From Pirellulales bacterium (GTDB taxonomy: Bacteria > Planctomycetota > Planctomycetia > Pirellulales > Thermoguttaceae): a stretch of DNA of 64,000 nt. The DNA lies in NCBI GenBank assembly GCA_016931995.1, contig JAFGDS010000067.1, forward strand, positions 1 through 64,000, in the 5' to 3' direction. The translations under genes were made by a program, and so were the position numbers. The notes beneath the pieces are model-generated. The model was not told the DNA's origin, searched no databases, and saw nothing but the letters and a program-made list of their open reading frames with translations. This document shows, piece by piece, positions 5,788 to 61,950 of this stretch (positions are counted from its first letter, which is position 1; each line of letters opens with the position of its first letter).

Positions 5788-7977
5788 ATGAGTTCCGACA
5801 CCACGCAACCCCTCGAAGGCGACGACCGACGCCGGTCGCAAGAGATCAGCCGGGAAAGCCGCCGGCCGCCGCTGGCGCTGCCCGGCTACGAGCCGCAGAG
5901 GCTCTTGGGCATGGGAGCCTTTGGCGAGGTCTGGGTGGCCGTCGAGCGAAACACGGGCCGCCGGGTCGCCATTAAGTTCTATACCCATCGAGGGGGGCTC
6001 GACTGGTCGCTCTTGGCCCGCGAGGTCGAAAAGCTCTCCTTCCTCTTCGCCGATCGCTACGCGGTGCAGCTTCTGGCCGTGGGCTGGGACGCGGAGCCGC
6101 CGTATTACGTCATGGAGTATCTCGAGCGCGGGTCGCTCGCCGCGCGGCTCCAGCAGGGCCCGCTGCCCGTGGCCGAGGCGGTCGCCCTCTTCCGAAGCGT
6201 GGCCGTGGGCCTGGTCCACGCCCACGACCAGGGCGTGTTGCACTGCGATTTGAAGCCGGCCAACATACTTTTGGATCGCGATGGGCAGCCGCGACTTGCC
6301 GATTTTGGGCAGTCGCGGCTATCGACCGAGCAGGCGCCCGCGCTGGGCACGCTCTTCTACATGGCCCCGGAGCAGGCCAAGCTGACCGAGGCGCCGCAGG
6401 CCCGCTGGGACGTGTACGCGCTGGGCGCGGTTCTCTATTGCATGTTGACGGGCGAGCCGCCGCATCGCACGCCGGAAAACGTGGAAAAGCTGGAGCGGAC
6501 CGAAGACCTCGACAAGCGCCTGAGCTTGTACCGGCGGATGATCCGCAAGTCGCCCGCGCCGTCGCGTCATCGGGAGATCCGCGGCGTGGATCGCGCGCTG
6601 GCCGAGATCATCGACCGCTGCCTGGCCGCGGAGCCGGAGGATCGCTATCCCGACGTGCAGGCCGTGCTGGCCGCGCTGGACGCCCGCGAGTCGCGCCGCG
6701 CCCGCCGGCCGGCGCTCCTTCTCGGCGCGATCGGGCCGGCCATCCTGTTGGCCGTGGCCGCGTGGTTCGCCTGGCAGGGCTTCAGCACGGCCGTCCGCCG
6801 GACGGATCAGGAGCTTACGCGCCGAGCATATCAGACCAATCGTTTTCTGGCGAGCAACCTGGCCGAGTTGGCCGGCAACGAACTGGGCCGCCGGTGGCGC
6901 GCGGTGGGCCAACTTGCCCAATCCAGCGAACTCCGCGAGGCCTTGGCGGCGGCAACGGGTCCGACGAGCGAAGCCGCCTCGCTTCTGGATGAATTGAGCG
7001 ACCCGACGCGGCCGGAACGCGAGCTTGAGCCGATGCGCCGGGATTATCGCGAGCAGGATCCTTCGCGAGCAACCTTGCAGCGATTGTTCGATCGGCTTAC
7101 GAAGCAAGCGGCCCGACAACACGGCGTCGTCGAGTCGGCCGGCTGGTTCCTGAACGATGCCCGCGGAATTCAGGTTGCCCGCAATCCGCGGCAGCCGATC
7201 ATCGGGCGGAACTACGCCTGGCGGAGTTATTTCAGCGGTCTGGCGGACGACCTGCTCCCGTCGCAACGCCCCGCGCCGGGCCAACACGTCGGGCGGGTGC
7301 GCCTCTCGGCCGTGTATCAGAGCCAGGCCACGCGGCGTTGGATCGCGGCCATCTCCGCGCCCATTCTGGGCGAGGGACCCGAGCCGGAGTTTCTGGGCGT
7401 TGTGGCCATGATGGTCGAACTGGACCGGTTCTCCAACTTTGAAGGCGACGATCCCGAACAGTTCGCCGCGCTGGTGGACTGGCGCGCCGGCCGCAACCAG
7501 GGATTGATCCTGCAGCACCCCCGGCTCGACGAACTCCTAAGCTCCCACGACAACCTACCCGAGATCGAGTTGCGAAAGTACCGCGTCGTGCTGACCCGAG
7601 CCGCGGACGGCGGGGGGCGGCTGGTGCGGTACCGCGATCCCTTGAGCGACGTGCCCCTGGACCAGCAGCGCTGGCTGGCCGAGATGGCGCCCGTGCCGAT
7701 CGCGGGAGAGACAGTCAATCCGGAGGACTGCCTGGCCGTCGTGGTCCAAGAGGCCTATCAGGGTTCGATCGGCCAGACGCTGGTGCGGCTCAAGGCGAGT
7801 CTCGTGCGCCGCGGCTTCCTCGCTCTTTTGGTCATTGCGGCCGTCATGGCCGGATTGTGGACGCTGGCGCTTCGCATGTTTCGCGAAGCGGGCCATCTGC
7901 CCCGCGTTCTCGCCGCGGCGGACGCCCCGGATCCCAGCGCCCCATCCAGCCGGACCCCCGGCTCCGGCGACACCTGA
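5788..7977 (+). CDS. Membrane Ser/Thr protein kinase with extracytoplasmic sensor
   Basis: This is a eukaryotic-type (Hanks) protein kinase that phosphorylates Ser/Thr on unknown targets. The kinase domain covers residues ~33-300: Gly loop GMGAFGEV, ATP-binding Lys63, HCDLKPANILL with catalytic Asp154, DFG at 172-174 and APE at 193-195. The usual HRD arginine is Cys, so this is a non-RD kinase whose activation may not depend on classical activation-loop phosphorylation. A membrane helix follows (~308-332), then a ~340-residue extracytoplasmic region resembling Cache sensors (FLNDARGIQVARNP near 455-470, IIGRNYAWRSYF), and a second helix (~672-694) with a short tail. The layout suggests ligand sensing across the membrane. 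A TATACT box lies only 6 nt before the ATG, so a leaderless mRNA is possible. Confidence 0.9.
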   Translation: MSSDTTQPLEGDDRRRSQEISRESRRPPLALPGYEPQRLLGMGAFGEVWVAVERNTGRRVAIKFYTHRGGLDWSLLAREVEKLSFLFADRYAVQLLAVGWDAEPPYYVMEYLERGSLAARLQQGPLPVAEAVALFRSVAVGLVHAHDQGVLHCDLKPANILLDRDGQPRLADFGQSRLSTEQAPALGTLFYMAPEQAKLTEAPQARWDVYALGAVLYCMLTGEPPHRTPENVEKLERTEDLDKRLSLYRRMIRKSPAPSRHREIRGVDRALAEIIDRCLAAEPEDRYPDVQAVLAALDARESRRARRPALLLGAIGPAILLAVAAWFAWQGFSTAVRRTDQELTRRAYQTNRFLASNLAELAGNELGRRWRAVGQLAQSSELREALAAATGPTSEAASLLDELSDPTRPERELEPMRRDYREQDPSRATLQRLFDRLTKQAARQHGVVESAGWFLNDARGIQVARNPRQPIIGRNYAWRSYFSGLADDLLPSQRPAPGQHVGRVRLSAVYQSQATRRWIAAISAPILGEGPEPEFLGVVAMMVELDRFSNFEGDDPEQFAALVDWRAGRNQGLILQHPRLDELLSSHDNLPEIELRKYRVVLTRAADGGGRLVRYRDPLSDVPLDQQRWLAEMAPVPIAGETVNPEDCLAVVVQEAYQGSIGQTLVRLKASLVRRGFLALLVIAAVMAGLWTLALRMFREAGHLPRVLAAADAPDPSAPSSRTPGSGDT

Positions 7978-8090
7978 TCCGGCGCCCCTCCGTCGGCAAG
8001 GTCGGCACAATCGTTTCAACGCGACGGCGCCGTCGCGGGCTATATATGTAGAGACTTTCGCAAAACCAAAATGAGTCCATCGGTCATCCT

Positions 8091-8165
8091 GAACGAAGGT
8101 CATCCTGAGTGAAGCGAAGGATCTCCTTGGCTTTCAAGCAGTTCAGATGCTTCGCTCGGCATGAC
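8091..8165. repeat. Imperfect palindrome GAAGCGAAGGATCT / AGATGCTTCGCTCGG
   Basis: The arms TCATCCTGAGTGAAGCGAAGG and CTTCGCTCGGCATGACA form an imperfect inverted repeat, and a partial copy of the left arm (TCATCCTGAACGAAGG) precedes it. Sequences of this kind (TCATCCTGAGCGAAGCGAAGG) are widespread intergenic repeats in bacteria. No coding role is seen in the 7978-8245 gap. Confidence 0.55.
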
Positions 8166-8245
8166 AGGTTCAAATTGGCTTTGGGATAGTCTCTTGGAAG
8201 GGCACGCGTGGCCGCAATCCCGCACATGGGAGCAACCTGGAACGC

Positions 8246-9379
8246 ATGATCCGTCGAATCGCGTTGGGCGTGGTGGCGGCGGCCCTGGCGCTGGGCCTGC
8301 TGCTGGCGAGTCAATGGCGCAGCCGGCCGCTGGTGGTCTCCGGGTTCATCGAGACCGACGAGATCCGGCTTGGCTCGCGCATCGGTGGGCGCGTGGCGCG
8401 CGTGGACGTCGAGGAGGGCGACCGGGTGAAGGCGGGCCAAACGCTCGTCGAACTCGAACCCTACGATCTTGCCGAACGCGAGGCCGCCGCCGCCGCCGCG
8501 CTGGCCGCCAAGAAAGCGGAATACGCCAAGCTCACCGCTGGCTACCGCCCGCAGGAGATCGCTCAGGCCGAGGCCCGGTACGACAGGATGAAGGCCGAAC
8601 ACGACAAGCTCGTCGCCGGCCCGCGCCCGCAGGAGAAGGACGCCGCCCGCGACCGGCTTCAGGCCGCCCAGGCCGAAATGCAGTTTGCCGAGTGGTCGTA
8701 CGATCGGGCGAAGGACCTCTTCGAGCGCAGCGCGATTGCCAAGGAGGAGCTGGACCGCCGTTCCGAGCAATTGCGGATCGCCCGAAGCCTCCAGGGCGTG
8801 CGGCGCAACGAGCTGGCGCTGTTGGAGGAAGGGACGCGGGCGGAAGACCTGGCGGCGGCCGCGGCCGCGGTGAAAGAGGCCCACGCCGCAAGCGAATTGG
8901 CGAAGGCCGGATTCCGCAAGGAAGACGTCGCCCTGGCCAAGGCCGCGATGGAGGCCGCCGCGGCCGAACTCGCGGCCATCGGCCGCCAGCGCGAGGAGCT
9001 TGCGATCGTGGCCCCGTTGAACGGATTCGTCGATTCGCTCGACCTGCGGCCGGGCGACCTGGCCGCGCCGAGCGCGCCGGTCATGTCCATGCTGAATCCG
9101 AAGCGGCTCTGGGTTCGGGCCTATCTGCCCGAGAATCTCTCGGTGCCGCTGGGCACGAAGGTCCGCGTGACCGTGGACGCGTTTCCCGACGAGTCCTTTG
9201 AAGCGGAAGTGACGTTTGTCTCGCGCCAGGCCGAATTCACGCCCAACAACGTGCAAACGCCGGAGGAGCGATCCAAGCAGGTCTTCCGCATCAAGGTCGT
9301 GCTGCTCGAGGGACTCGATCGGCTTCGGCCCGGCATGGCCGCCGACGTCTGGTTGCCCCCGTCCGAGGCCGCGCCATGA
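8246..9379 (+). CDS. HlyD-family membrane fusion protein
   Basis: This is a periplasmic adaptor (YbhG/HlyD type) that should link the downstream ABC exporter to the outer envelope. Residues ~4-22 form one N-terminal membrane anchor. A biotinyl-lipoyl-like half follows (GRVARVDVEEGDRVKAGQTL, ~50-70), then a long Ala/Glu/Arg-rich coiled-coil hairpin (~80-245), the second lipoyl half (LAIVAPLNGFVDSLDLRPGD, ~252-272) and a beta-barrel domain ending near residue 372. The length of 377 is typical. Its stop overlaps the start of the ABC gene by 4 nt (ATGA), so the two are translationally coupled. Confidence 0.92.
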   Translation: MIRRIALGVVAAALALGLLLASQWRSRPLVVSGFIETDEIRLGSRIGGRVARVDVEEGDRVKAGQTLVELEPYDLAEREAAAAAALAAKKAEYAKLTAGYRPQEIAQAEARYDRMKAEHDKLVAGPRPQEKDAARDRLQAAQAEMQFAEWSYDRAKDLFERSAIAKEELDRRSEQLRIARSLQGVRRNELALLEEGTRAEDLAAAAAAVKEAHAASELAKAGFRKEDVALAKAAMEAAAAELAAIGRQREELAIVAPLNGFVDSLDLRPGDLAAPSAPVMSMLNPKRLWVRAYLPENLSVPLGTKVRVTVDAFPDESFEAEVTFVSRQAEFTPNNVQTPEERSKQVFRIKVVLLEGLDRLRPGMAADVWLPPSEAAP

Positions 9380-11637
9380 ACGGCCCGGCCATCGACGTTC
9401 GCCAACTGTCGCGGCGATTCCACGAACTGACGGCCGTGGACCGCGTCTCGTTCGACGTCCAGCGCGCGGCCATCTTCGGCCTGTTGGGACCCAACGGCAG
9501 CGGCAAGTCCACGATCATCCGGATGCTCTGCGGCGTGTTGGCGCCCTCGGGCGGAGACGCCTCCGTGCTGGGCCTGGACGTCCGCACGCAATCGGAACGG
9601 ATCAAGCGCCGCATCGGCTACATGTCGCAGGCGTTCAGCCTGTACGGCGACCTGTCCGTGCGGGAGAACCTCGACTTCTACGGGCGGATCTACAATCTGC
9701 CGCGGCAGCGCCTGATCGATCGGCGCGACGCCGTGTTGGATCTCACCTCGCTGGGCGGACGCGTCGCGCAGTTGGCCGGCACGCTCTCCGGCGGCTGGAA
9801 GCAGCGGCTCGCCCTGGCCTGCGCGCTCATCCACGAGCCGGAAGTGGTTTTCCTCGACGAACCCACCGCCGGCATCGACCCCGTCGCCCGGCGGCAGCTT
9901 TGGGACCTGCTCTTCAAGCTGTCGGGCCAGGGCGTGACGCTGTTCGTCACCACGCACTACATGGACGAGGCCGAGCGGTGCAGCGACGTCGGCTATATCT
10001 ACCAATCCCGTCTCCTTCTGCTGGGCAAACCCGCCAGCCTGCGACGCTTGCCGGAAGTCACGCCCCCCGGCACGCGGCGCTGGGAGCTGGTCGTGCCGCG
10101 CCCGGTCGAGCGGCTCATGGCCCTGGAAACGGACGAGGACGTGCGGGACGCCACGCTCTTCGGCCACGCCATCCACGTGCTGGTGGACGACGACGTGCGG
10201 CCCGACGATCTCGTGGCGCGTCTGGACGTTCCCCGCGAGGAAGCAAGCGTCCGCCCGATCGAGCCAACGCTCGAGGACGTGTTCGTCTCGCTTACCCGCG
10301 CGGCCGACGCGCGGCACGAGGCCGGAGCGAACGATCCATCGCCGCTCCGCACGGACGACAACGAGCCACGCCGCGAGCCGGACGACGCGGCCGGTGCGCC
10401 GGGCGTCACGACCACGCCGGGCTCGCCACGCGAAAAACCCACCCCGGCCGCGCCGCCCGACGCCCCGCGCCCGATGCGCCGCCGCCGCACGACCGACGGA
10501 TTCGCCGCGATCTGCCTGAAAGAGTTCTCCCACATCCGCCGCCAGCCGGCAACGCTGTTCTTCCTGTTGGTCGTGCCCATCATCCAAACCATCATCTTCG
10601 GTTACGCCATCAATACGCAGATCGACAACATCCCCACGGTGGTCCTCGACCTCGACGGCCGAGGCAATGCGCGCCGGCTGGTCGAGGCGTTCGTCAATAC
10701 GCGGAAATTCGCCGTCGTCGAACGCGTGCGCGACGAGGATTCGTTTCGCCGGGCGATGACGTCGGGCCGGGCGAAGGTGGGGATCAAGATCCCGCCCAAC
10801 TACTCCGACCGCCTCGTCCGCGCCGAACAAGTCCAGGTGCAGGTGCTCATCGACGGCAGCGATTCCCAGGTGGCCACCACGGCGCTGAACGCGGCAAGCC
10901 TGCTGGGACTGAACATGTCGATCCAAATGGCCAAACGCAAGGCCGACTCGCTTCAGATCGGCGTGGCGCGCAACGCGGCCGGTCGGGCCGCGCTGCCCGT
11001 CGAGGTCCGCCCCCGGCTGCTCTACAACCCCGACCTGGATAGCTCCCATTTCTTCGTGCCCGGATTGGTGGGACTCATCCTCCAACTCGTTACGCTCTTC
11101 CTTACGTCGTTCGCCATCGTCCGCGAGCGGGAGCTGGGTACGCTCGAACAGTTGTTCGTCACGCCGGTGGGACGCGCCGGCCTCATGCTGGGCAAGCTGC
11201 TCCCATACGCGGTGCTGGGCGTGCTGGAAACGCTGCTCGTCCTGAACGTGATGGTCTTCATCTTCGGCGTGCCCATCGCCGGCGACGTCTTTTTGCTATT
11301 GGCCCTGGCAACCCTCTTCTTGGTCTGCTCGCTGGGTCTTGGGTTGCTCGTGTCCACGCTGGCCAAGACGCAGGTGGCGGCGCTCTTGTTCGCGTTCATG
11401 GTGATGCTGCCCTCGGTGCTCCTCTCCGGATTCATGTTCCCCCGGTCGGAGATGCCCACGGCCATCTACGTGTTGACCTTTGCCATCCCGGTGACCTATT
11501 TCCTCGAGATCCTCCGGGGGATCGTGCTCCGCGGCGCGGGCCTGGTCGATCTGACCGCGCCGCTGGTGGGTCTTTCGATCTGCTGCGTGCTGATCGTGGC
11601 CCTGAGCATCGCGCGATTCCGCAAGCAGTTGTCGTAG
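9376..11637 (+). CDS. ABC exporter: ATPase fused to ABC-2 permease
   Basis: This is a drug or macromolecule exporter in which the ATPase and permease are one polypeptide. Residues 1-~230 are a CcmA-type ATPase: Walker A GPNGSGKS (~36-43), signature LSGGWKQRLALACAL, Walker B VVFLDEPTAGID and switch His in FVTTHYMDE. A Pro/Ala/Arg-rich, probably disordered linker covers ~310-375. The rest is an ABC-2 (YbhR/YbhS-like) permease: one helix (~390-410), a ~140-residue outer domain, then five or six helices. The E. coli counterparts are separate genes, YbhF plus two permeases; here only one permease is present, so the transporter is probably a homodimer of the fusion. The start codon overlaps the adaptor gene by 4 nt. 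Confidence 0.93.
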   Translation: MNGPAIDVRQLSRRFHELTAVDRVSFDVQRAAIFGLLGPNGSGKSTIIRMLCGVLAPSGGDASVLGLDVRTQSERIKRRIGYMSQAFSLYGDLSVRENLDFYGRIYNLPRQRLIDRRDAVLDLTSLGGRVAQLAGTLSGGWKQRLALACALIHEPEVVFLDEPTAGIDPVARRQLWDLLFKLSGQGVTLFVTTHYMDEAERCSDVGYIYQSRLLLLGKPASLRRLPEVTPPGTRRWELVVPRPVERLMALETDEDVRDATLFGHAIHVLVDDDVRPDDLVARLDVPREEASVRPIEPTLEDVFVSLTRAADARHEAGANDPSPLRTDDNEPRREPDDAAGAPGVTTTPGSPREKPTPAAPPDAPRPMRRRRTTDGFAAICLKEFSHIRRQPATLFFLLVVPIIQTIIFGYAINTQIDNIPTVVLDLDGRGNARRLVEAFVNTRKFAVVERVRDEDSFRRAMTSGRAKVGIKIPPNYSDRLVRAEQVQVQVLIDGSDSQVATTALNAASLLGLNMSIQMAKRKADSLQIGVARNAAGRAALPVEVRPRLLYNPDLDSSHFFVPGLVGLILQLVTLFLTSFAIVRERELGTLEQLFVTPVGRAGLMLGKLLPYAVLGVLETLLVLNVMVFIFGVPIAGDVFLLLALATLFLVCSLGLGLLVSTLAKTQVAALLFAFMVMLPSVLLSGFMFPRSEMPTAIYVLTFAIPVTYFLEILRGIVLRGAGLVDLTAPLVGLSICCVLIVALSIARFRKQLS

Positions 11638-22435: not shown

Positions 22436-22810
22436 TCACACTGGCCCGTCGTCTGGCCGCGGCAATGAAGTGACCGTGGCAGGCGTCTTGCTCGCGCTCT
22501 CGGCTCTCTTGGTTTTTGGGACGGGCAGCGGCTCGACGCGGTCCCAATCATCCGGGATGAACGGGTTGCCCCACCATTGGGCGTTGTACGCCTGCATGGA
22601 GCGAATTCGCTGGTTCCACTGCGTTGCCTGGCCAACGACGTCCTCCGACGACTCGCCGGAAAGGTTTCCGATGTCGGATCGAAGTTGTTCGATCGCTGGA
22701 CCGGCGCCGACGAACGCAATGTCGTAGCTGATCCGGACGACCGCCGCCGGCACGCACAACAGACCGATGGCCACGGCCACGGCCAAAAGGTTTCGCATCG
22801 TATCGCGCAT
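22436..22810 (-). CDS. Small membrane-anchored protein, unknown
   Basis: The protein is 124 residues. An N-terminal hydrophobic segment (~5-27, LLAVAVAIGLLCVPAAVV) acts as an anchor or uncleaved signal. It is followed by a charged outer domain with WNQRIRSMQAYNAQWWGNPF and PDDWDRVEPLPVP, and a Pro/Ser/Thr-rich tail. No family is recognised. It follows the 133-residue exported protein by 46 nt on the same strand and may belong to the same transcript as the synthetase locus. The Shine-Dalgarno is weak. Confidence 0.6.
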   Translation of the reverse strand: MRDTMRNLLAVAVAIGLLCVPAAVVRISYDIAFVGAGPAIEQLRSDIGNLSGESSEDVVGQATQWNQRIRSMQAYNAQWWGNPFIPDDWDRVEPLPVPKTKRAESASKTPATVTSLPRPDDGPV

Positions 22811-22856: not shown

Positions 22857-23258
22857 CTATTGGACTTCGAGGGGATCTCGCTTCTTAAGTTCGATCGACA
22901 GGATGTTCTTCTGCGGGATCAGGATGACGCCCCAGTCGTGCTCGTCCTCGCATTCGAGATATCGCGGCTGATCGCTTGCCAGACCGCTTTCCTCGCTGCC
23001 TTCGGCGTCGTTTTCAATGCGGAGGTTGGACAGGCGGATGAACGTGCGGTCGCACTTGCCCAACTCGATCTCGTCGAGCACCTTCTTCTCGATGGTGCCG
23101 ATCAGATAGTCATTTGTTTCTTGGTTCGGCATGTGCACGCTCACGCCGACCCACACGACTTCGCGGGATTCCGTGTCCTGATCTTGCGCCTGAAGACGAC
23201 CCGCGGTCATCAGCCCGGCGATCCCAATACCCAACGCACAAAGCAAAATCCGAGACAT
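22857..23258 (-). CDS. Small exported protein, unknown
   Basis: The 133-residue protein has a Sec signal peptide (MSRILLCALGIGIAGLMTAG, cleavage near LQAQ). The mature part is acidic (DQDTESREVVWVGV, then an ENDAEGSEESG stretch) and ends with an ordered segment, DWGVILIPQKNILSIELKK. GAGGAG lies 8 nt before the ATG. It starts 85 nt after the synthetase stop, so it could be the fourth gene of that transcript. An acidic exported protein beside a predicted polycation locus could bind the product, but this is a guess. Confidence 0.65.
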   Translation of the reverse strand: MSRILLCALGIGIAGLMTAGRLQAQDQDTESREVVWVGVSVHMPNQETNDYLIGTIEKKVLDEIELGKCDRTFIRLSNLRIENDAEGSEESGLASDQPRYLECEDEHDWGVILIPQKNILSIELKKRDPLEVQ

Positions 23259-23343: not shown

Positions 23344-26300
23344 CTACGACTCCTGAGTACCCGAGATCGCGCTGGTGGGAATTCCGAGCCAGCGGGTGGA
23401 CGCGGGAAGTGTCTCGCCCTTCATCAGCAGGGACAACGGGCCCACCGACGCGCCTTGTTTCATCTCCGTGTCATAGAGCACCACGGACATGTTGCCGATG
23501 GAACACTCATCGCCAATCCGCAAGTACGAGGATTTCATGATCCGGTCCTCGAAGAGGTGGTTCTGAACGACGGCGCCCAGATTAAGCGCGGCGTAATCGC
23601 CGATATCCACCAGATCGAACTCGGAGAATAGGGCCGTCTCGAGGAACACCCGCTTGCCGATCTTGCACCCCATCAGCCGGAGATACCAGTTGATGAAAGG
23701 GGTCCCCATCAGCGGCGCCAATGCCGGCGTGGCGACGGTCTCGTAGGCGCCGTTGATGACCTCATTCCACCACACGTACGTGCACCAAAGCGGCTTGATG
23801 ACCGGCTTGAACGGAGCCATCAGGAGCCGCTTCAAGGCCACGACGCACAACGCGACACCCAACGCGACGGCCAGCGCAACGGGCGGCGTGAAGATCACCG
23901 TCACCCAAAGCGGCAAGATGGAATACGAAAACGCCAGAAGGAAGACGAAGGCGACCGACGCCGCGGCCAGGATATAGTACGGAATCAGTATCCGCAGCGC
24001 GTCGATCAGGAACCGGAGAACGTAGAGCCTTACGGTTGGACGGTACGTCTGGGCGTCCTTGAAGCCTTCGACCTTCTTCCGATGCGGCAGCCGGAACGAC
24101 GGCGAGCCGAGCCACTCGGTGCCGTCCGGCGTCCTGGAGGAATCGGCGGGCGGGGCCGAGAGCACGCCCAAAAGACAGTTGTCGCCCAGACTGGATCCCA
24201 GCGGGAGGATCGCATTGTTGCCCACGAAACTCCGCCGCCCGATCCGGTTGCTGTTGAATTGCGCATGGCCGCGGAAGAAGTGCCGTCCGCCGATCATCGA
24301 GCCGTCGGCAAAGAAACTCTCGTCCTCAATGACGATCAGGTCGGGCGTGACCTGAGTGACGGTGGAGATTTCCGCCCGAACCCCGATCTTGGCTCCCAAC
24401 AGCCGAAGCCACGTCGGGAGATAGATCGTCGTGTACAGCGGGTGCAACAGCGCGCGGCTGGTGGACAACAGCACGTCCACCATCCACTTACGCAGGAACA
24501 GGACGCTCTCGACCGGATAGACGCCAGGCCGCATACGACCCAGAATCAGGGCCTTAAGAGCCGCGACGCACAGGCAATACCAGACAATGCCGACGGGCAC
24601 GGCCACGGTCATCGACGCGATTGCCCAAAGCGTGCCCCCGAGAAACATGGGAAACGCCATGATGATCAGGGAGGGAACCATCGTGACCAGCAAGGCGATT
24701 TCCAGTACCCCAAGCAGCAAAACGTGGATCAGACCGAAGAGGAAGGGATGCCTGCGCGCAGCCTGCGCATCGGTGACTTCCGCAATTCCGACTTTGGCCG
24801 GCTTTGCCGGGGAACCCCGGCGAGCCTCGCCGGGTGGAATGAACCCGCCGTCGGGCAGCAGCGAGAGATCGTCCAGCCGCGCGTCGTCCCCCATCCGCGT
24901 GTCCAGACCCAAGTTGCTGTGGATTCCCACGAAGCAGCGACTGCCGATCTCGACCGTGCCGAGAATCAGCATTCCATCTTCCACGCGGTAGCCCAGCAGT
25001 TGCGTTTCCGAACCGATGCACGAATCCTCGCCGATGGTCACCAGGTCGAACGCAAAGCACAAGGCCGTGTCGAGAATGCAGTTGCGTCCGACCTTCGCGC
25101 CCATGAGCCGGTAGTAGAGACTCATGACCGGCGTGCCGGCCAGGATGCCCATGCCGCTGAGAGCCTGGATCCGCGTTGCAAGCCACCAACGAAAGTAGTA
25201 CAAGCCCCAAAGAGGGTACCTGCCCGACTTGTACTTTCCGATGATCAACCATTTGAATACGATGCTGGTCGCGAGCATCGCCGGAAACGTCCCAAAGGTC
25301 AGCATCGAGACGATGGCGATGGCCGGTTCCACCGCGAGGTTGCCCTGCACCAAGGCGAAGACAATGCCCATCAGAATGACGACGGGCAACGTAACGAATC
25401 CGTGGATCAACAGCAGGGAAAGCGCCTGCATCGCCACGCACGCCCAGCGCGCCAGCACGGGCACGCTCTGGAAGACCTCTCGGCTGGTTGGCCGTTCGCA
25501 GCGGTTCTGAACCCCGTCTTCCTCGTCGGCGCGCTCTTCGTCCGACGAGGCGACGTGCTCGGCGAGTTTTCGGATCGTGGTGTGTTCGTAGACGTCGCGG
25601 ATGGCGACCTCGACACCCGACTTCGCCCGCAGACGTGAGACCACCTGCGCGGCAAGCAACGAGTAGCCACCCAGATCGAGGAAGAAGTCGTCGTCGATCG
25701 AAATCGGCGACACGTCGAGGACCTCCTCCCACACGTCGGCGATCTTGCGCTGGACGTCGGTAACGGGGCGGACGATGTCGCGCCGGGCGCGCACGAGGGG
25801 AACGACCGGCTCCGGCAGGCGGTTTCGATCAATCTTTCCGCTGGTCAGCGACGGCAGCCTCGCGATCGAGTCGAGGTACGCCGGAACCATGTAGGCGGGC
25901 AGCCGGGCGTGGAGCAGCTCGTAGACGCCGTCCTGCTCGAACGGCCGCGTCGCGTCCTTGGGCACCACGTACGCGGCCAGGTCCTGGGCGCCGTCGCGAT
26001 CGACCACCTTGACCGCCGCCGCGCGGACCCTCGGATGCTCCATGAGGACCGCCTCGATTTCCGACAACTCGACGCGATATCCGCGGACTTTGACCTGGCT
26101 GTCGATTCGTCCGAGGAACTCGAGCTCCCCGCGCTCGTTCTCGCGGACCAGGTCGCCCGTCCGATAGAGCCGCGGCGAGCTGGACAAATCGCCGAACGGA
26201 TTGGCGATGAACTGTTTGGACGTCAACTCCGGTTGTTTGAAGTAGCCGCGCGCAACGCCCGCTCCGCCGACGAACAGCTCGCCGGGCTCTCCGCGCGAAA

Positions 26301-27309
26301 CCGGTCGAAGATTCTCGTCGAGGACGTGCGTCTCGTAGTCCGGCAACGGCCTGCCGATCGTCACCGGCCTGCCCGGCGCGCACTCGGCCGCCGTGGAGTT
26401 CACCGTGGCCTCGGTCGGACCGTAGACGTTGAGCATGCGACGCGCGGGGGTGGCCCACTTCGAGACAAGCTCCGGAGGGCAGGGCTCCGCGCTGACCACC
26501 AAAAGGCGCACGCTCGGCAAGTCCTCCTCGATCATCGACAAGAAGGTCGGAACCGTGGAAAGGTACGTGACGCGTTGGCGGGTTAATAGTCGGGCGACCT
26601 CGTTTCCGAACCGAACCACTTCGCCCGTGCCAACCACCAGCGCCGCGCCGTTGGAGAAGGCCATCCAGATCTCTTCCACCGAGCCGTCGAACGCCAACGA
26701 GAAACCTTGATAGACGCGGTCCGTGTGGTCCATCCGGCAGACGGCGTTGAACGCCGCCGCGAACCGAACGGCGTTTCGGTGCTCCGTCATCACGCCCTTG
26801 GGGCGTCCCGTGGTCCCGGACGTGAAGATGACGTAGCACAGATCGTCGGGCGACACGCCGGACTGCCCGCGCGAGAGGCGCGCCGTCGACTGCCGGCCAA
26901 TTTCCTCGGCGTCCGCGTCGAGCGCGACGATCCGGCCCGAGAAAACGGCCGACGCCTTGGCCGCCATCGCCTGTTCGGTCAGGAGCACGTCGGCTTCGGC
27001 CTCGTCAAGGATGTGCCGCATGCGTTCGGACGGGTATTCCGGATCGAGCGGGACGTACGCGGCGCCCGCCTTCAGACACGCAAGCAGCGCGATGATCGGC
27101 CGTGCCGATCGCTGGAAGTAGACGCCGACAAATGACCCCGGTCCGACGCCGCGCGCGCGCAGATAATGCGCCAACTGGTTTGCCCGGCGTTCCACTTCTT
27201 CATACGAGTAGGTGTCGTCCCCGCAGACCAGGGCCGGGTCGCGGGGCCGAAGATCGACCTGTGCCTCGAAGAGTTCGTGGAGGCATTGTGTGTCCAGTGA
27301 CACCGTCAC
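23344..27309 (-). CDS. Pls-type nonribosomal peptide synthetase (A-T-membrane/LbH)
   Basis: The 1321-residue protein matches the epsilon-poly-L-lysine synthetase (Pls/PosA) plan. The adenylation domain (~1-495) has A3 FTSGTTGRPKGVM, A5 NVYGPTEAT and A10 TSGKIDRNRLP. The carrier domain (~515-585) has phosphopantetheine site Ser550 in DLGGYSLLAA. The C-terminal ~700 residues have three membrane blocks alternating with three left-handed beta-helix modules (hexapeptides such as GRNCILDTALCFAFDLVTIG). There is no ordinary condensation (HHxxxDG) or thioesterase domain, as in Pls, where the C-terminal modules polymerise the monomer. Manual alignment to the PheA pocket gives D208, G209, E212, S251, V271, S273, V295, V303, N304 plus Lys; Asp with Glu at the third position suits a basic amino acid. 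The GTG at 27309 overlaps the kamA stop by 4 nt (GTGA). A GTG one codon upstream is an alternative. Confidence 0.9.
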   Translation of the reverse strand: MTVSLDTQCLHELFEAQVDLRPRDPALVCGDDTYSYEEVERRANQLAHYLRARGVGPGSFVGVYFQRSARPIIALLACLKAGAAYVPLDPEYPSERMRHILDEAEADVLLTEQAMAAKASAVFSGRIVALDADAEEIGRQSTARLSRGQSGVSPDDLCYVIFTSGTTGRPKGVMTEHRNAVRFAAAFNAVCRMDHTDRVYQGFSLAFDGSVEEIWMAFSNGAALVVGTGEVVRFGNEVARLLTRQRVTYLSTVPTFLSMIEEDLPSVRLLVVSAEPCPPELVSKWATPARRMLNVYGPTEATVNSTAAECAPGRPVTIGRPLPDYETHVLDENLRPVSRGEPGELFVGGAGVARGYFKQPELTSKQFIANPFGDLSSSPRLYRTGDLVRENERGELEFLGRIDSQVKVRGYRVELSEIEAVLMEHPRVRAAAVKVVDRDGAQDLAAYVVPKDATRPFEQDGVYELLHARLPAYMVPAYLDSIARLPSLTSGKIDRNRLPEPVVPLVRARRDIVRPVTDVQRKIADVWEEVLDVSPISIDDDFFLDLGGYSLLAAQVVSRLRAKSGVEVAIRDVYEHTTIRKLAEHVASSDEERADEEDGVQNRCERPTSREVFQSVPVLARWACVAMQALSLLLIHGFVTLPVVILMGIVFALVQGNLAVEPAIAIVSMLTFGTFPAMLATSIVFKWLIIGKYKSGRYPLWGLYYFRWWLATRIQALSGMGILAGTPVMSLYYRLMGAKVGRNCILDTALCFAFDLVTIGEDSCIGSETQLLGYRVEDGMLILGTVEIGSRCFVGIHSNLGLDTRMGDDARLDDLSLLPDGGFIPPGEARRGSPAKPAKVGIAEVTDAQAARRHPFLFGLIHVLLLGVLEIALLVTMVPSLIIMAFPMFLGGTLWAIASMTVAVPVGIVWYCLCVAALKALILGRMRPGVYPVESVLFLRKWMVDVLLSTSRALLHPLYTTIYLPTWLRLLGAKIGVRAEISTVTQVTPDLIVIEDESFFADGSMIGGRHFFRGHAQFNSNRIGRRSFVGNNAILPLGSSLGDNCLLGVLSAPPADSSRTPDGTEWLGSPSFRLPHRKKVEGFKDAQTYRPTVRLYVLRFLIDALRILIPYYILAAASVAFVFLLAFSYSILPLWVTVIFTPPVALAVALGVALCVVALKRLLMAPFKPVIKPLWCTYVWWNEVINGAYETVATPALAPLMGTPFINWYLRLMGCKIGKRVFLETALFSEFDLVDIGDYAALNLGAVVQNHLFEDRIMKSSYLRIGDECSIGNMSVVLYDTEMKQGASVGPLSLLMKGETLPASTRWLGIPTSAISGTQES

Positions 27310-28376
27310 CACTTACGCACCTCGTCCGTTTGATGCTCGCGGCAATGGGTCGGGTAGCTGCAGGTAAACCCTTCGTAGTTCTTCAGCACGATCTCTTCGT
27401 CGTCGTAATGAACGACCGGATCCGGAATAATGGCGATCTTGCCGACCCCCCCCGACCCGTCGACGACGAAGTGCGGCACGGCCAGGCCCGACGTGTGTCC
27501 CCGCAGAGACGCCATGATGTTAAGCCCCGTCTCGATGGACGTTCGGAAATGGTCGGTTCCACGAACGAGATCCGCCTGGTAGATGTAATACGGCCGGACG
27601 CGGATGGTCAAGAGCTTCTGCACGAGGCGTTTCATCACGGCGGGATCGTCGTTCACGCCTTTGAGAAGGACCGATTGGTTGCCCAGCGGGATGCCGGCGT
27701 CGGCCAACATGTTGCACGCCTTGCTCGATTCCGGCGTGATCTCGCGGGGGTGGTTGAAGTGCGTGTTCAGGAAGAGGGGGTGGTGCCTTTTGAGTATCTT
27801 GCACAGCTCCGGCGTCACCCGTTGGGGAAACGTCACCGGAACGCGGCTTCCGATGCGCAGGATCTCGACGTGCCGGATGGACCGAAGGCTCTTGAGGATC
27901 GCGTCGATCCTCTCGTCGGCCAGCATGAGCGGGTCTCCGCCCGAGACGATGACGTCTCGAATCTCGGGATGTCGCCGAATGTAGTCCAGGCCGCACTGAA
28001 TACCCTCGTCGCTGAGCGACTGCGGGTTGCCCACCTTCCGCTTGCGCGTGCAGAATCGACAATACGTCGCGCAAACGTGGCTAACGTAGAAGAGCACCCG
28101 ATCGGGATACCGGTGCGATATGCTGGGCACCGGGCTGTCGGCCTCTTCGGCCAGCGGGTCCACTTCTCCCGCGTCGTTGAGTTCCTCGATGTCCGGGATG
28201 GCCTGTCTCCAAATGGGATCGCCTTTTTCCCGAATCAAACCCAGGTAGTACCGGCTGACCCGAAGCGGATAAACCTCGTGGACCCGCCGAAGCTCCTCCG
28301 GATCCACGCGGAGTATCTTGGCAAGCTCGTCGGGGCGAGTAATCGCCGTCTGGGCCAGTTGTTTCCACTCACTCAT
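27306..28376 (-). CDS. kamA: Lysine 2,3-aminomutase-family radical SAM enzyme
   Basis: This KamA-family enzyme uses SAM, a [4Fe-4S] cluster and PLP to convert L-lysine to beta-lysine. The cluster motif is CATYCRFC (CxxxCxxC) followed by TRKRKVG. The GGDPL motif (VIVSGGDPLMLAD) is present, as are PLFLNTHFNHPREITPE and GIPLGNQSVLLKGVNDD. The length of 356 residues is closer to EpmB/YjeK (about 340), which acts on EF-P, than to clostridial KamA (about 416), so family alone does not settle the role. The context does favour monomer supply: it is tightly coupled to a lysine-type adenylation enzyme and follows a phosphopantetheinyl transferase, with no epmA or efp nearby. The ATG at 28376 was chosen over a TTG at 28400. 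Confidence 0.92.
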   Translation of the reverse strand: MSEWKQLAQTAITRPDELAKILRVDPEELRRVHEVYPLRVSRYYLGLIREKGDPIWRQAIPDIEELNDAGEVDPLAEEADSPVPSISHRYPDRVLFYVSHVCATYCRFCTRKRKVGNPQSLSDEGIQCGLDYIRRHPEIRDVIVSGGDPLMLADERIDAILKSLRSIRHVEILRIGSRVPVTFPQRVTPELCKILKRHHPLFLNTHFNHPREITPESSKACNMLADAGIPLGNQSVLLKGVNDDPAVMKRLVQKLLTIRVRPYYIYQADLVRGTDHFRTSIETGLNIMASLRGHTSGLAVPHFVVDGSGGVGKIAIIPDPVVHYDDEEIVLKNYEGFTCSYPTHCREHQTDEVRKW

Positions 28377-28424
28377 GACGTTTTTTCCACAGATGCGCAA
28401 TCGCGATGCTACGTCTCAAACGGT

Positions 28425-29207
28425 TCATCCCGCGCGTCGCGGACGATCCCGCTGCCAGTCGGCCAACGGCTCACGGAAAAGGTAATACGTCCATTCCGGC
28501 GCCTTGGGCCCCGGGCATTGGGCCGCCAGCGACAATTGGTAGAAGCCGTCCGGCATCCGAACCTCGTGTGTCGCCAAGTGCAGGCCAACCGGGGGAAGTC
28601 CCCCCGTCTCGGTCCGCGCTAGCCGCAACGGGTCCATCCCGATCTCAAAAGACGAAAAATCAAGCGCGACACCCCGGCCAAGCAACTTCGCATAGGCCTC
28701 TTTCGCCGTCCACAGCCGGAGGAAGTCGCGTGCCCGTTCCGCCCTGGGCCGGCGCGCCAACCAGGCGCGCTCGCCGGGCGCGAGAATGGATTCAGCGGTG
28801 ACCGCGTCGTGCGCCGGATCGAGAAACTCGACGTCGAGTCCGACGGGCGCGCGCAAGGCCACGGCTGCCACGACGAGCCACCGACAGTGCGAGAGACTAA
28901 ACTCCAATGCCGGCAGCCCCGCCGCGTCCACCACGGCCGGCTTCCCCTCATCCGCTGTGCGGAACCGCCAGCAGCGCGGATCGACCTTCCGTGGGGCAGC
29001 GTGGGAAAGGGCCGTCCGAAGCAGTGCGCGAGACACAAGATAGCGACGCCGGTCGGATTCGACACGAAACCGTCCAAGCTGGCGCTGCTCCAAGTCGCTC
29101 AGCAGTTCGAGCCATGCCCCAGGCAATGGCGCACCGTCCGCGCCTGTGGCAGCAATCCACACGTCGACGTGGGGCCTCGTTCGGCAGTACGACCAGGGCA
29201 GAGTCAT
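28425..29207 (-). CDS. 4'-Phosphopantetheinyl transferase (Sfp type)
   Basis: This enzyme transfers the phosphopantetheine arm of CoA to a carrier-domain serine, here most likely Ser550 of the downstream synthetase. The Sfp/AcpS signature is clear: substrate region FSLSHCRWLVVAAVA, magnesium-binding PVGLDVEFLDP, and FLRLWTAKEAYAKLLGRG with the WxxKEAxxK motif. The length of 260 residues is near Sfp (~225), with a ~45-residue tail. It is the first gene of the predicted operon, and 48 nt separate it from kamA. No strong Shine-Dalgarno precedes the ATG. Confidence 0.92.
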   Translation of the reverse strand: MTLPWSYCRTRPHVDVWIAATGADGAPLPGAWLELLSDLEQRQLGRFRVESDRRRYLVSRALLRTALSHAAPRKVDPRCWRFRTADEGKPAVVDAAGLPALEFSLSHCRWLVVAAVALRAPVGLDVEFLDPAHDAVTAESILAPGERAWLARRPRAERARDFLRLWTAKEAYAKLLGRGVALDFSSFEIGMDPLRLARTETGGLPPVGLHLATHEVRMPDGFYQLSLAAQCPGPKAPEWTYYLFREPLADWQRDRPRRAG

Positions 29208-29963
29208 TTGTCGTGGCGGATCTCGTTGTTGAAGCGCCGACCCATCAGCCTGCCATCAGGTCCCTCTCCATCAGGACGCCCTCAAGGGCTTTTCACGTCG
29301 TCGTTGTCCTCGACGACAACTGTGGGCGTATCACAAACCCGTCACACCACTGAAGGCCCCACCCGGGGGTCACCGTAAAACCGGCATACCGCGTTGCCGG
29401 CGGGACAATGGACAAAAACGAGAGGAGATATCGGTGAGATAAAGGGTAATCGCATCGTAAACAGGCAAACAGGGGTTGTCAATAACCGCCACCGCCCGGG
29501 TTCGGCCTGGCGCGGGTGGGTTTGCACCAGTGGGGGGGCTGGACGGGACTTGCGGGCGTCCCCTGTCCGAACATCCGGCGCAATCGGAATGATTGTGGGG
29601 CTCGCCGCGGCGCGGACGGCGTCTCGTCGCGTCGGCCGACGCGCGGATCTCCGTCGGTTCGGCTGCACCGTCGCACGTCAGTCTTTCACAAGAAGGCAGA
29701 CTCAAGGGGACCGCGCCAACCGGCGCCTCGGCGAGACTTCTCCCAGGTGCCATAGGTAGTCCTTGAAAGCCGGCCTTTGACGTTTTTTCCGCGCCGGCCG
29801 GCGAATTGACTCGCGCCCTTCAGGCAGACTTCCGATGGAAGTTAACGGATCTGTGGAAGACGGTGGGGCATTGCCAGCACACAAGCTGGTCCTTCGTCTA
29901 TTACAACCTCACCGCGTCGGTATGGCCCTCCACGTCGCCTCGCTGGGAAAAGGACTGCCCATC
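29208..29963. other. Divergent intergenic region, no gene seen
   Basis: About 750 nt lie between the minus-strand synthetase locus and the plus-strand porin. Open frames in this stretch overlap on both strands and have no recognisable content. The 29400-29490 part is AT-richer and holds the promoter noted separately. Regulation of both divergent units should lie here. Confidence 0.5.
29454..29482 (-). promoter_or_regulatory. Sigma70-like promoter of the synthetase locus
   Basis: On the minus strand TTGACA (29482-29477), a 17-nt spacer and TACGAT (29459-29454) form a near-consensus promoter. The predicted start of transcription near 29447 leaves a leader of about 240 nt before the phosphopantetheinyl transferase ATG. 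No riboswitch or attenuator fold could be identified by eye in the leader. Confidence 0.5.
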
Positions 29964-31310
29964 ATGAACCTGAAAAGCCTCTTCATTGGGATGGCGTTGC
30001 TCGCTGTCTTTGGTCTATCCGCGGCAGCCGCGGCTCAGGGACTGCAACAACCGGCCTCGGTGAATCAGCTCCTTTGGCCCGATGGCACGGATGCGACGCC
30101 GCCGGCTTTCAATCAGGCAGCTGCCTTGCCCGGCCCGGCCCCTGGCGTCCGACCCGTTGGCTACTTCGCCGACGATGAGGACCTGGGCGCCGGAATGGCA
30201 ACCGAGGAGACGCTCCGGTGGACCCCGAACGGCGCCGGCCGCGGGCGTCGGACGCCGCGTGGCTTTGAATTCGGCGGCTGGCTCCAACAGGGTTTCTCGG
30301 CGGCGGGTAACAACCCCATCGACCGCTTTAATGGTGTCGTCGGAATGAACGATCGCCATGCGGAATACCAGATGAACCAGCTATGGTTTTTCCTGGAACG
30401 CGAGACGGCAATCCGCGGCGACGGTTGGGACATCGGCGGCCGGGTCGACGTCATGTTGGGTACCGACGCCTATTTCATCCAGTGTAAGGACGGGCTCGAG
30501 GCCAACTGGAATCAGCGAGAGCGCTTCTATCAGATGGCGCTGCCTCAGTTCTACATGGACGTCGCCTACAATGACTTCACGTTCACGATGGGCCACTTCA
30601 TCAGCCCCTTGGAATGGGAATCGTACCTGGCGCCCCACAACTTCTTCTACTCTCATTCCTATGCGTTCATGTACGCCGTGCCCGGCACCTTGACCGGCGG
30701 CCTGCTCACGTGGGACCTCACCGATCAAGCCCAGGTATATGGCGGTTTCCATCGAGGCGGCGATCAGTTTGAAGACACCGACGGTCTTAACGCGTTGAAC
30801 TTCATCGGCGGCGTGAGCTGGGAAAGCGAGGACGAGGACACGTACCTCGAATTCGGCATCGACGCCGAGGAGGACGGCCCCGGCGATCAAGTGGTGATGG
30901 GGGCGATCTCGATGCTACGGAAGCTCGGCGACCGGACCGATTGGATGATCGAGTACGTGCAAGGACACAAGGACGCCTGCGGAAACGACTGGTACGGAAT
31001 CAACCAGCACCTCATTCACAAGATCAACTGCTGCTGGACGGTCGGCGCCCGGCTCGAGTGGTTCCGCGACGACGATGGAGGCGTGGTGTACGGCTACCGA
31101 CAAGGAAACCTCGCGCACGGACCCTTCATCGGCAACTTCTGGGAACTAACGCTGGGGCTCAACTACCAGATCCGACAGAACCTCCTCCTTCGCAACGAAG
31201 TGCGTTGGGATTGGTATACGGCCGATCACGCGGGCGGGCCGCGCCCCTTCGACGGCGGCGACCGGAACCGGCAATTTCTCTACGGCATCGATTTGATTTA
31301 CACGTTCTGA
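29964..31310 (+). CDS. Outer-membrane beta-barrel porin (BBP2/OmpL-like)
   Basis: The 448-residue protein has a Sec signal peptide (MNLKSLFIGMALLAVFGLSA, cleavage near AAAQG). A ~60-residue Pro-rich spacer follows, then many alternating, aromatic-rich strands typical of a barrel: FEFGGWLQQGFSAAGN, NDRHAEYQMNQLWFFLERE, DIGGRVDVMLGTDAYFIQ and WELTLGLNYQIRQNLLLRNE, ending in a strand ...LYGIDLIYTF with terminal Phe, the usual outer-membrane signature. The ATG at 29964 was chosen because it starts the signal peptide and AGGA lies 9 nt before it; the longer frame from 29835 adds implausible sequence. A role in solute passage is inferred from the family only. Confidence 0.85.
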   Translation: MNLKSLFIGMALLAVFGLSAAAAAQGLQQPASVNQLLWPDGTDATPPAFNQAAALPGPAPGVRPVGYFADDEDLGAGMATEETLRWTPNGAGRGRRTPRGFEFGGWLQQGFSAAGNNPIDRFNGVVGMNDRHAEYQMNQLWFFLERETAIRGDGWDIGGRVDVMLGTDAYFIQCKDGLEANWNQRERFYQMALPQFYMDVAYNDFTFTMGHFISPLEWESYLAPHNFFYSHSYAFMYAVPGTLTGGLLTWDLTDQAQVYGGFHRGGDQFEDTDGLNALNFIGGVSWESEDEDTYLEFGIDAEEDGPGDQVVMGAISMLRKLGDRTDWMIEYVQGHKDACGNDWYGINQHLIHKINCCWTVGARLEWFRDDDGGVVYGYRQGNLAHGPFIGNFWELTLGLNYQIRQNLLLRNEVRWDWYTADHAGGPRPFDGGDRNRQFLYGIDLIYTF

Positions 31311-60884: not shown

Positions 60885-61950
60885 GTTCCGTTCCTCCGGC
60901 CGGGCAACAGGTGATCCCCCAACCCCGCCGGCCCGCGCGCCGACGCCCCCGGAGGCCGGCGCTTCCCTTTCTACCTCCGCGCCCCCGGCCCGGTCAATGA
61001 AACGCGCAAAAACCGCGTTAGCGGCACACTCCCTTTGGCGGGGTGACAACCGTGGAGTGCCACTGGCTTTGCCCGTGCCTGACCAGCTCGGCGGAGTGCC
61101 ACTGGCTTTGCCAGTGCCGGGCCAGGATTCACGCACGCCCAGCGCCCCCCGACGCACGTTTCGCGGGATCCCACAACCCTTCCTCCGCGCCTCGACACGA
61201 ATTCTTTTGGAGAGAGCATCCGGGCTTGTTTGGGCCGAAGCTTATGAAACGGCGAAGCTCGTGAAGTACTGCCGGAGGCCGCACAAATGTCACACGTAGC
61301 GTATCTGGCCATCATCCCCCGCTGCAAGGCGGCTGACATGCGGTGGCGGCTTGGCGAGCGGCACCGTGCTTGAGCATTCAGCGGCTCGACCGATAGGCGA
61401 GGGTGCTCGATTCACAGATTTGCTGGCCTAACGGGCCAGCCCAAAGCAAACGGCCATGCCGCACCCAACCATCTTGAACTTCATGGTCACGAGGGCATGA
61501 ATCGAAGCTGCTAGGTTTGAAGGACCAAGCCAATCGGCCTCGCTTTGGCCCACTCGCTCGCGGTCGAGTTCCCCTCGAAACGCAGGCCCAAAGGAACTAC
61601 GACGCCGCCGGGCCAGCCGCCGATCGGGCGGCGTTCGGCTCGCGCGGCGTGGAAAGCAATTCTTCCCATCCAGACGCCGGCCCGATGGGATCGCCCACCG
61701 AATCACCGGTCTATTCCGCGACGGCTCAACACCTTTCGTCCCTCGGACGACCACGAACGGAACGTGGGACCACGTAGGCGTTCGCGGGCCACGAAGCCGG
61801 GAAACAGATTTTTGGCAATCTCTCCCAATCGGGGGGATGTCAGATGATTGACAAGTAGGGAATGGGTCGTTAGTTTCTGGGAATTGCCGTGGATGGCCGC
61901 CCATTCGGGTACGGCTGTCCGCAAGAGGTCGGACCAGCGGGAGGGGATGG
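60885..61950. other. Long intergenic stretch, no convincing gene
   Basis: About 1.07 kb have only overlapping, low-complexity open frames. Two copies of palindromic family B lie at 61056-61078 and 61096-61118 (GTGCCACTGGCTTTGCC(A/C)GTG), co-oriented 40 nt apart. The 61440-61900 part has lower GC and could be decayed coding DNA, but no family is readable. Confidence 0.5.
61056..61118. repeat. Two direct copies of palindromic family B
   Basis: The two copies share GGAGTGCCACTGGCTTTGCC and differ in the last positions (CGTG against AGTG). They are the only tandem pair of this family in the window. Confidence 0.65.

Follow-up and report, generated by a model that had tools for sequence, protein, structure and literature searches.

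The window analyzed here, that is, the whole 64,000-nucleotide stretch of contig JAFGDS010000067.1 from a Pirellulales bacterium (Planctomycetota), carries a compact three-gene operon which, judging from its sequence, probably directs the synthesis of epsilon-poly-L-beta-lysine, with lysine being converted to beta-lysine and the latter then being polymerized at the membrane into a polycation. The three genes lie on the minus strand, reading from 29207 to 23344, and encode a phosphopantetheinyl transferase (28425..29207, 260 amino acids), a KamA-type radical S-adenosylmethionine (SAM) enzyme (27306..28376, 356 amino acids when counted from its ATG), and a Pls/PosA-type homopolymer synthetase of 1322 amino acids (23344..27312), the latter assigned from TIGR02353, a pocket alignment and a model of its terminal domain. 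The chemistry itself is already known from an actinomycete, the epsilon-poly-L-beta-lysine synthetase of Streptoalloteichus hindustanus having reportedly been described by Yamanaka in 2022, and the polymer has been reported from an actinomycete as an antibiotic; what is added here is a planctomycete host, a compact operon, and a synthetase paired with separate aminomutase lineages. The locus predicts a poly-beta-lysine product in Planctomycetota, where our targeted literature searches turned up neither an epsilon-poly-L-lysine synthetase nor a beta-lysine polymer; the papers returned for beta-lysine deal, by title, with EF-P or its modification, a beta-transaminase and paddy soil. The portion of PMC8117764 available to us mentions neither an aminomutase nor beta-lysine.

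An initial annotation, made from the sequence alone, had described three tightly packed minus-strand genes for a phosphopantetheinyl transferase, a KamA-family aminomutase and a Pls-type synthetase, and had read the monomer as beta-lysine. All three open reading frames are present at the positions given there, the Pfam and NCBIfam assignments match the families named, and the beta-lysine monomer is supported by the adenylation pocket, the clade, the pocket-specific linkage to aminomutase genes, the aminomutase residues and the complete terminal domain. Its further claim of a GTGA overlap between kamA and the synthetase gene holds if the synthetase starts at GTG 27309, which gives a 4-nucleotide overlap; GTG 27312 is an alternative start, and with either choice the end of kamA overlaps the beginning of the synthetase gene. 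For kamA itself, ATG 28376 is a more likely start than TTG 28400.

The synthetase consists of an adenylation domain (residues 15-493, 25834..27270 on the minus strand; PF00501 and PF13193, with 305.9 bits for AMP-binding), a carrier (T) domain (residues 523-587, 25552..25746; PF00550, PP-binding, 55.3 bits) and a Pls terminal, or polymerization, domain (23377..25434), which spans positions 1-694 of the 695 of TIGR02353 and, at 608.5 bits, clears the cut-off of 423.1 set for this Pls/PosA family. This is the single match to that family in the host genome. No condensation or thioesterase domain is found among the Pfam matches of the synthetase at an expectation value (E) of 0.001. Across 55 other rows (a set in which the Enhygromyxa locus is counted twice, as L049 and L167), 27 positions of the terminal domain are conserved to 95% or more, and the window protein retains every one of them; hydropathy analysis places three hydrophobic regions in this domain. 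An AlphaFold2 model of a 715-residue stretch, calculated from a 39-row alignment of the window and locus proteins, reached a predicted local distance difference test score (pLDDT) of 92.1 and a predicted template modeling score (pTM) of 0.91. This model contains three pairs of long helices (12-48/54-83, 249-285/287-316 and 487-525/528-557), and a strand-rich domain of hexapeptide-like type comes after each pair. Adenylation and carrier domains, and behind them six transmembrane helices arranged as three pairs that alternate with three further domains, is the layout described for both Pls and PosA (PMC10522769; this and the other articles are cited for the portions available to us). The architecture of adenylation, carrier, transmembrane and LbH parts proposed in the initial annotation is borne out by Pfam, hydropathy and the structure prediction of the C-terminal modules. 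A Foldseek comparison of the model with solved structures gave no matches at E ≤ 0.001; among the matches listed, most were hexapeptide-type transferases and gamma carbonic anhydrases with E > 0.002, and these are too weak for a mechanism to be read from them.

Turning to the substrate, alignment gives the ten-position adenylation pocket code DGESVSVVNK, identical to that previously read by hand (D, G, E, S, V, S, V, V, N plus Lys), and this speaks against the alternative raised there that the domain activates an unrelated amino acid. The code DGESISVVNK has been published for the epsilon-poly-beta-lysine synthetase of S. hindustanus, and also for a homologue from Methylomarinum (PMC10522769); the window agrees with it at 9 of 10 positions, with Val in place of Ile at the remaining one, the comparison being with a code taken from the text of this one paper. 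The same alignment columns give DMEHNGTVSK at two loci (L087 and L088; L-numbers denote single loci) and DSECYGGVTK at 11 planctomycete loci, which are the codes published for PosA (ornithine) and Bdello_A (arginine), respectively (PMC10522769), and because both are returned letter for letter, we consider the column mapping to be sound. The window synthetase thus differs from Acinetobacter baumannii PosA, the delta-poly-L-ornithine enzyme, in its pocket (DGESVSVVNK vs DMEHNGTVSK), while sharing with it the TIGR02353 family and the terminal-domain layout (PMC10522769). Similarly, it resembles Streptomyces albulus Pls in domain order and terminal domain, and the solved adenylation domain of that enzyme (7wew) matches the window at E 1.6e-86, but lysine enzymes, Pls included, carry Ala at the second pocket position (PMC10522769), where the window has Gly.

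Several other pocket types were encountered in the course of this comparison. The two loci with the ornithine-type code come from genomes of the host's own family (G030 and G031), such that at least two Pls pocket types occur in one family. The 11 planctomycete Pls-like synthetases with DSECYGGVTK (L091-L094, L096-L099 and L101-L103) match with E < 1e-50 but score below the TIGR02353 cut-off; as a bearer of this code from Bdellovibrionales activates L-arginine (PMC10522769), a polymer of arginine or a relative may, going by these codes, be the more frequent type in planctomycetes. An unusual code, DFEGEGTITK, is carried by a Pls-type synthetase on the contig of a Methanothrix metagenome-assembled genome (L067), and three Rhodoblastus synthetases (L069, L077 and L082) share DLEDIGSVVK, which is near the unassigned DLEDIGT code group of PMC10522769.

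In a 57-row tree of the adenylation-carrier region, which includes the ten pocket columns, a single clade with support 100/99 unites the 20 DGES rows with one DGED row, and this clade contains the S. hindustanus proteins L052 and L074. Both the tree and the linkage count given below leave out L085 and L086 (other peptide synthetases), L081, L090, L095 and L100 (pocket partly off the contig), and L049 (the same locus as L167); L178-L181 were added later and stand outside the tree. We note that the homologue set was seeded with peptides of the window synthetase and is thus no unbiased sample. The window kamA overlaps the synthetase gene from upstream, and in the first set an aminomutase gene lies within 1.3 kilobases (kb) upstream, on the same strand or divergent, at 14 of 20 DGES loci, compared to 0 of 36 loci with other codes. 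A survey of 396 genomes of the host's order gave nine with a Pls terminal domain over the cut-off, four of them new; among the newly fetched loci, all three with DGES have a kamA directly upstream, and the one with another code (DMESNGTITK) has none. The total is then 17/23 DGES loci vs 0/37 with other codes (Fisher p ~3e-10, with kinship not accounted for), where the DGED locus L073 is outside the 23, five of the 37 have less than 2 kb of readable upstream sequence (L062, L063, L067, L088 and L091), and several of the 37 share a genome with a DGES locus. Within the host-order sample, all six DGES synthetases adjoin an aminomutase gene. One of these linkages, that in G015, rests on two contig ends fitting together, while a binning artefact is unlikely for G661, as this is a single-contig genome. 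The synthetase-aminomutase pairing also recurs in several other bacterial phyla.

These data bear directly on whether the synthetase could instead make ordinary epsilon-poly-L-alpha-lysine, with KamA merely sharing the operon and serving another purpose. Such a reading has in its favor that Pls is the founding member of the family and that an acidic pocket with Asp and Glu would fit either lysine isomer. However, ten loci with the lysine-type DAES code have no aminomutase in their readable flanks (L062 and L063 have hardly any upstream sequence), unlike the DGES clade and the window itself, and the other uses of beta-lysine are either covered elsewhere in the genome or were not found, as discussed below. 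We therefore consider plain poly-alpha-lysine to be improbable, and reject it on the basis of pocket and linkage.

The KamA enzyme is in keeping with a supply of beta-lysine. It matches Radical_SAM (47.6 bits) and LAM_C (61.6 bits) in Pfam, and L-lysine 2,3-aminomutase 2a5h with 382.6 bits in a phmmer search. Aligned to 2a5h, it contains the CxxxCxxC cysteines, R134, D293, D330 and K337, of which we take the cysteines to be those of the radical SAM cluster, K337 to be the lysine that binds pyridoxal 5'-phosphate, and D293 and D330 to bind the epsilon-amine. The three cysteines and these four residues are kept in all 18 KamA enzymes examined (17 linked to DGES synthetases, plus that of L073). 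In the KamA tree, which leaves out the long, distant row L003, two deep groups are separated with support 100/100, and both contain synthetase-linked enzymes (11 of the 12 rows of one group and 7 of the 22 of the other), with the tree requiring five changes of linkage label, two of them forced by its starred branches. The host's family (the window, and the close relatives' genomes G015 and G018, also Pirellulales, Planctomycetota) uses one of these groups, and G641, G661 and G720, which belong to other families of the same order, use the other. The recurrence of a DGES pocket beside aminomutases from two deep groups would make the pocket code usable as a predictor of beta-lysine, and would let scattered homologues be sorted by product.

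A number of observations weigh against a beta-lysine polymer. The window KamA scores 467.4 bits with the AblA model TIGR03820, below its cut-off of 525.4; this is the top scorer among the seven NCBIfam models listed, but because the score falls short we call the enzyme lysine-2,3-aminomutase-type only. Furthermore, 6 of the 23 DGES loci are without a nearby aminomutase: L052, L053, L064 and L074 lack one across ~9 kb on each side, L072 lacks one in 5.6 kb upstream (it is cut downstream, and a search of its genome gave none at E 1e-15), and L049/L167 lacks one in the mere 1.4 kb upstream that precede the end of its contig. The lysine-type (DAES) locus L062 has no readable upstream sequence, and its genome holds a 52% identical KamA on another contig. 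Finally, both S. hindustanus DGES proteins align Val, not the printed Ile, at pocket position 5. A KamA is carried elsewhere in the genomes of L049, L052/L074, L053 and L064, and the non-DGES genomes of L057, L062, G030 and G031 also hold one, on other contigs.

The well-known uses of beta-lysine are the modification of elongation factor P (EF-P) and the osmolyte N-epsilon-acetyl-beta-lysine, either of which the window KamA could in principle supply, and this genome does possess an EF-P modifying system. This system, however, stands apart on another contig (C122), where an EF-P gene (TIGR00038, 233.1 bits, cut-off 185.8), epmA (347.6 bits, cut-off 286.9) and a second kamA stand in a row. This second KamA scores 365.0 bits with the EpmB model, close to its cut-off of 369.3, whereas the window KamA, at 247.5 bits with the same model (TIGR03821), lies far below it. 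In the case of the osmolyte, a search for AblB at E 1e-3 gave no match in the host genome, which is rated 99% complete, while it did give matches in 5 of 14 control genomes. With a separate efp-epmA-epmB cluster and no AblB match, neither process needs the window KamA; we thus reject both roles, and consider it very unlikely that the enzyme serves either one, which includes the case, named in the initial annotation as one that would refute it, of a KamA acting only on EF-P. The genome also holds a third, distant KamA of 460 amino acids (L105, on C74), beside proteins resembling D-Ala-D-Ala ligase, NlpC/P60 and RloB.

It is also conceivable that beta-lysine is activated and attached as one or a few units to another molecule, as in streptothricin, rather than being joined into a free homopolymer. 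Streptothricin likewise has beta-lysine units in isopeptide linkage, and a stand-alone adenylation domain beside a KamA at L073 demonstrates that another arrangement exists in the same order. The bonds of streptothricin are, however, made by a stand-alone adenylation domain (PMC10522769, PMC9606270), whereas the window has an adenylation-carrier protein with a membrane terminal domain that is complete at all of its near-invariant positions (27/27), and no acceptor-building genes stand directly beside the synthetase among the neighbors scanned. Taken together, this makes such decoration quite unlikely here.

The L073 locus (7646-10611 of JAFGFZ010000361.1, from the Pirellulales metagenome-assembled genome Zod_Metabat.1355) encodes an adenylation protein of 534 amino acids with the code DGEDLTVVNK, which lacks both a carrier and a terminal domain; its gene directly follows that of a lysine-2,3-aminomutase-type KamA. 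In its surroundings are a glycosyltransferase, a Polysacc_synt_3 protein and a glutamine-amidotransferase protein, and a beta-lysyl decoration of a polysaccharide is possible.

Returning to poly-beta-lysine, the operon would operate as follows. KamA, going by its residues, would shift the alpha-amino group of L-lysine to the beta carbon, and the adenylation domain, going by pocket and clade, would turn the carboxylate of L-beta-lysine into an ester of adenosine monophosphate. The activated L-beta-lysine would then be passed to the phosphopantetheine arm of the T domain, presumably installed by the transferase of the operon. The six-helix terminal domain and its three beta-helix modules would repeatedly couple the side-chain amine to the thioester of the next residue, a mode of joining that is established for Pls, and the product would be a polycation with isopeptide bonds. 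We infer the substrate, the product and its epsilon linkage, chain length, export and biological role, the last of these being likely that of an antimicrobial or surface polycation. Since a single compact operon would cover the supply of the monomer, the activation of the carrier and the polymerization itself, the system is suited to heterologous expression.

The closest described system is that of S. hindustanus, for which epsilon-poly-beta-lysine and a Pls homologue with an aminomutase neighbor were reported in 2022, and where the adjacent lysine-2,3-aminomutase gene helped in the discovery of the synthetase (both as given in PMC10522769). Common to both systems are the Pls/PosA architecture, nine of ten pocket positions and a reported aminomutase neighbor (PMC10522769). 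This actinomycete has three Pls-related proteins: L052 (full length, DGESV), L074 (9001-10752, 599 amino acids, likewise DGESV; it has the adenylation and carrier domains but lacks the Pls terminal domain) and L161 (DFEC). We regard L052 as the candidate for the epsilon-poly-beta-lysine synthetase, and the window synthetase is 52% identical to it over nearly its full length; L161 is presumably the poly-diaminobutyrate enzyme that is placed in this species (PMC8225329). Beyond the host phylum, the two systems differ in that no kamA lies within 9 kb of L052 in the type-strain record (on that contig, the nearest one found is ~34 kb off), and in that the window transferase as query found no phosphopantetheinyl transferase in L052.

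The window transferase matches PF01648 (ACPS) with 61.7 bits, over the gathering score of 25, and Sfp (1qr0) at E 3.9e-13 in phmmer, and is thus Sfp-like. With this protein as query, a phosphopantetheinyl transferase match was obtained near 7 of the 17 linked loci and none near the other 10. The transferase gene stands in front of kamA in the window, G018 (L089), G015 (L146) and L083, while in L054 kamA and the synthetase gene flank it; the matches near L051 and L061 are weaker.

Behind the synthetase gene, on the same strand, follow a 133-residue protein with a signal-like N-terminus (22857..23258) and a 124-residue protein with a hydrophobic N-terminus (22436..22810), neither of which has a Pfam match. 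In the two close relatives examined, G015 and G018, both are conserved in this position, the former with 55% (L048) and 37% (L089) identity and the latter with 65% and 60%, respectively. On the other side, a divergent neighbor on the plus strand (29835..31310) encodes a BBP2-family beta-barrel porin (PF07642, 191.3 bits), with a 57% identical counterpart in the same divergent position in G018 (L089, 5549-6913). An export role for the porin and the two small genes is a guess. Speculatively, and with considerable doubt on our part, poly-beta-lysine could be widespread over several phyla, made by one synthetase clade working with separate aminomutase lineages, and in Pirellulales could serve as a polycation that is secreted or kept in the envelope and has dedicated export components (the two small exported proteins, and possibly the porin for crossing the outer membrane). 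Elsewhere in the window, a 923-residue open reading frame on the minus strand (58386-61157) fuses DUF2961 to a dockerin type I domain.

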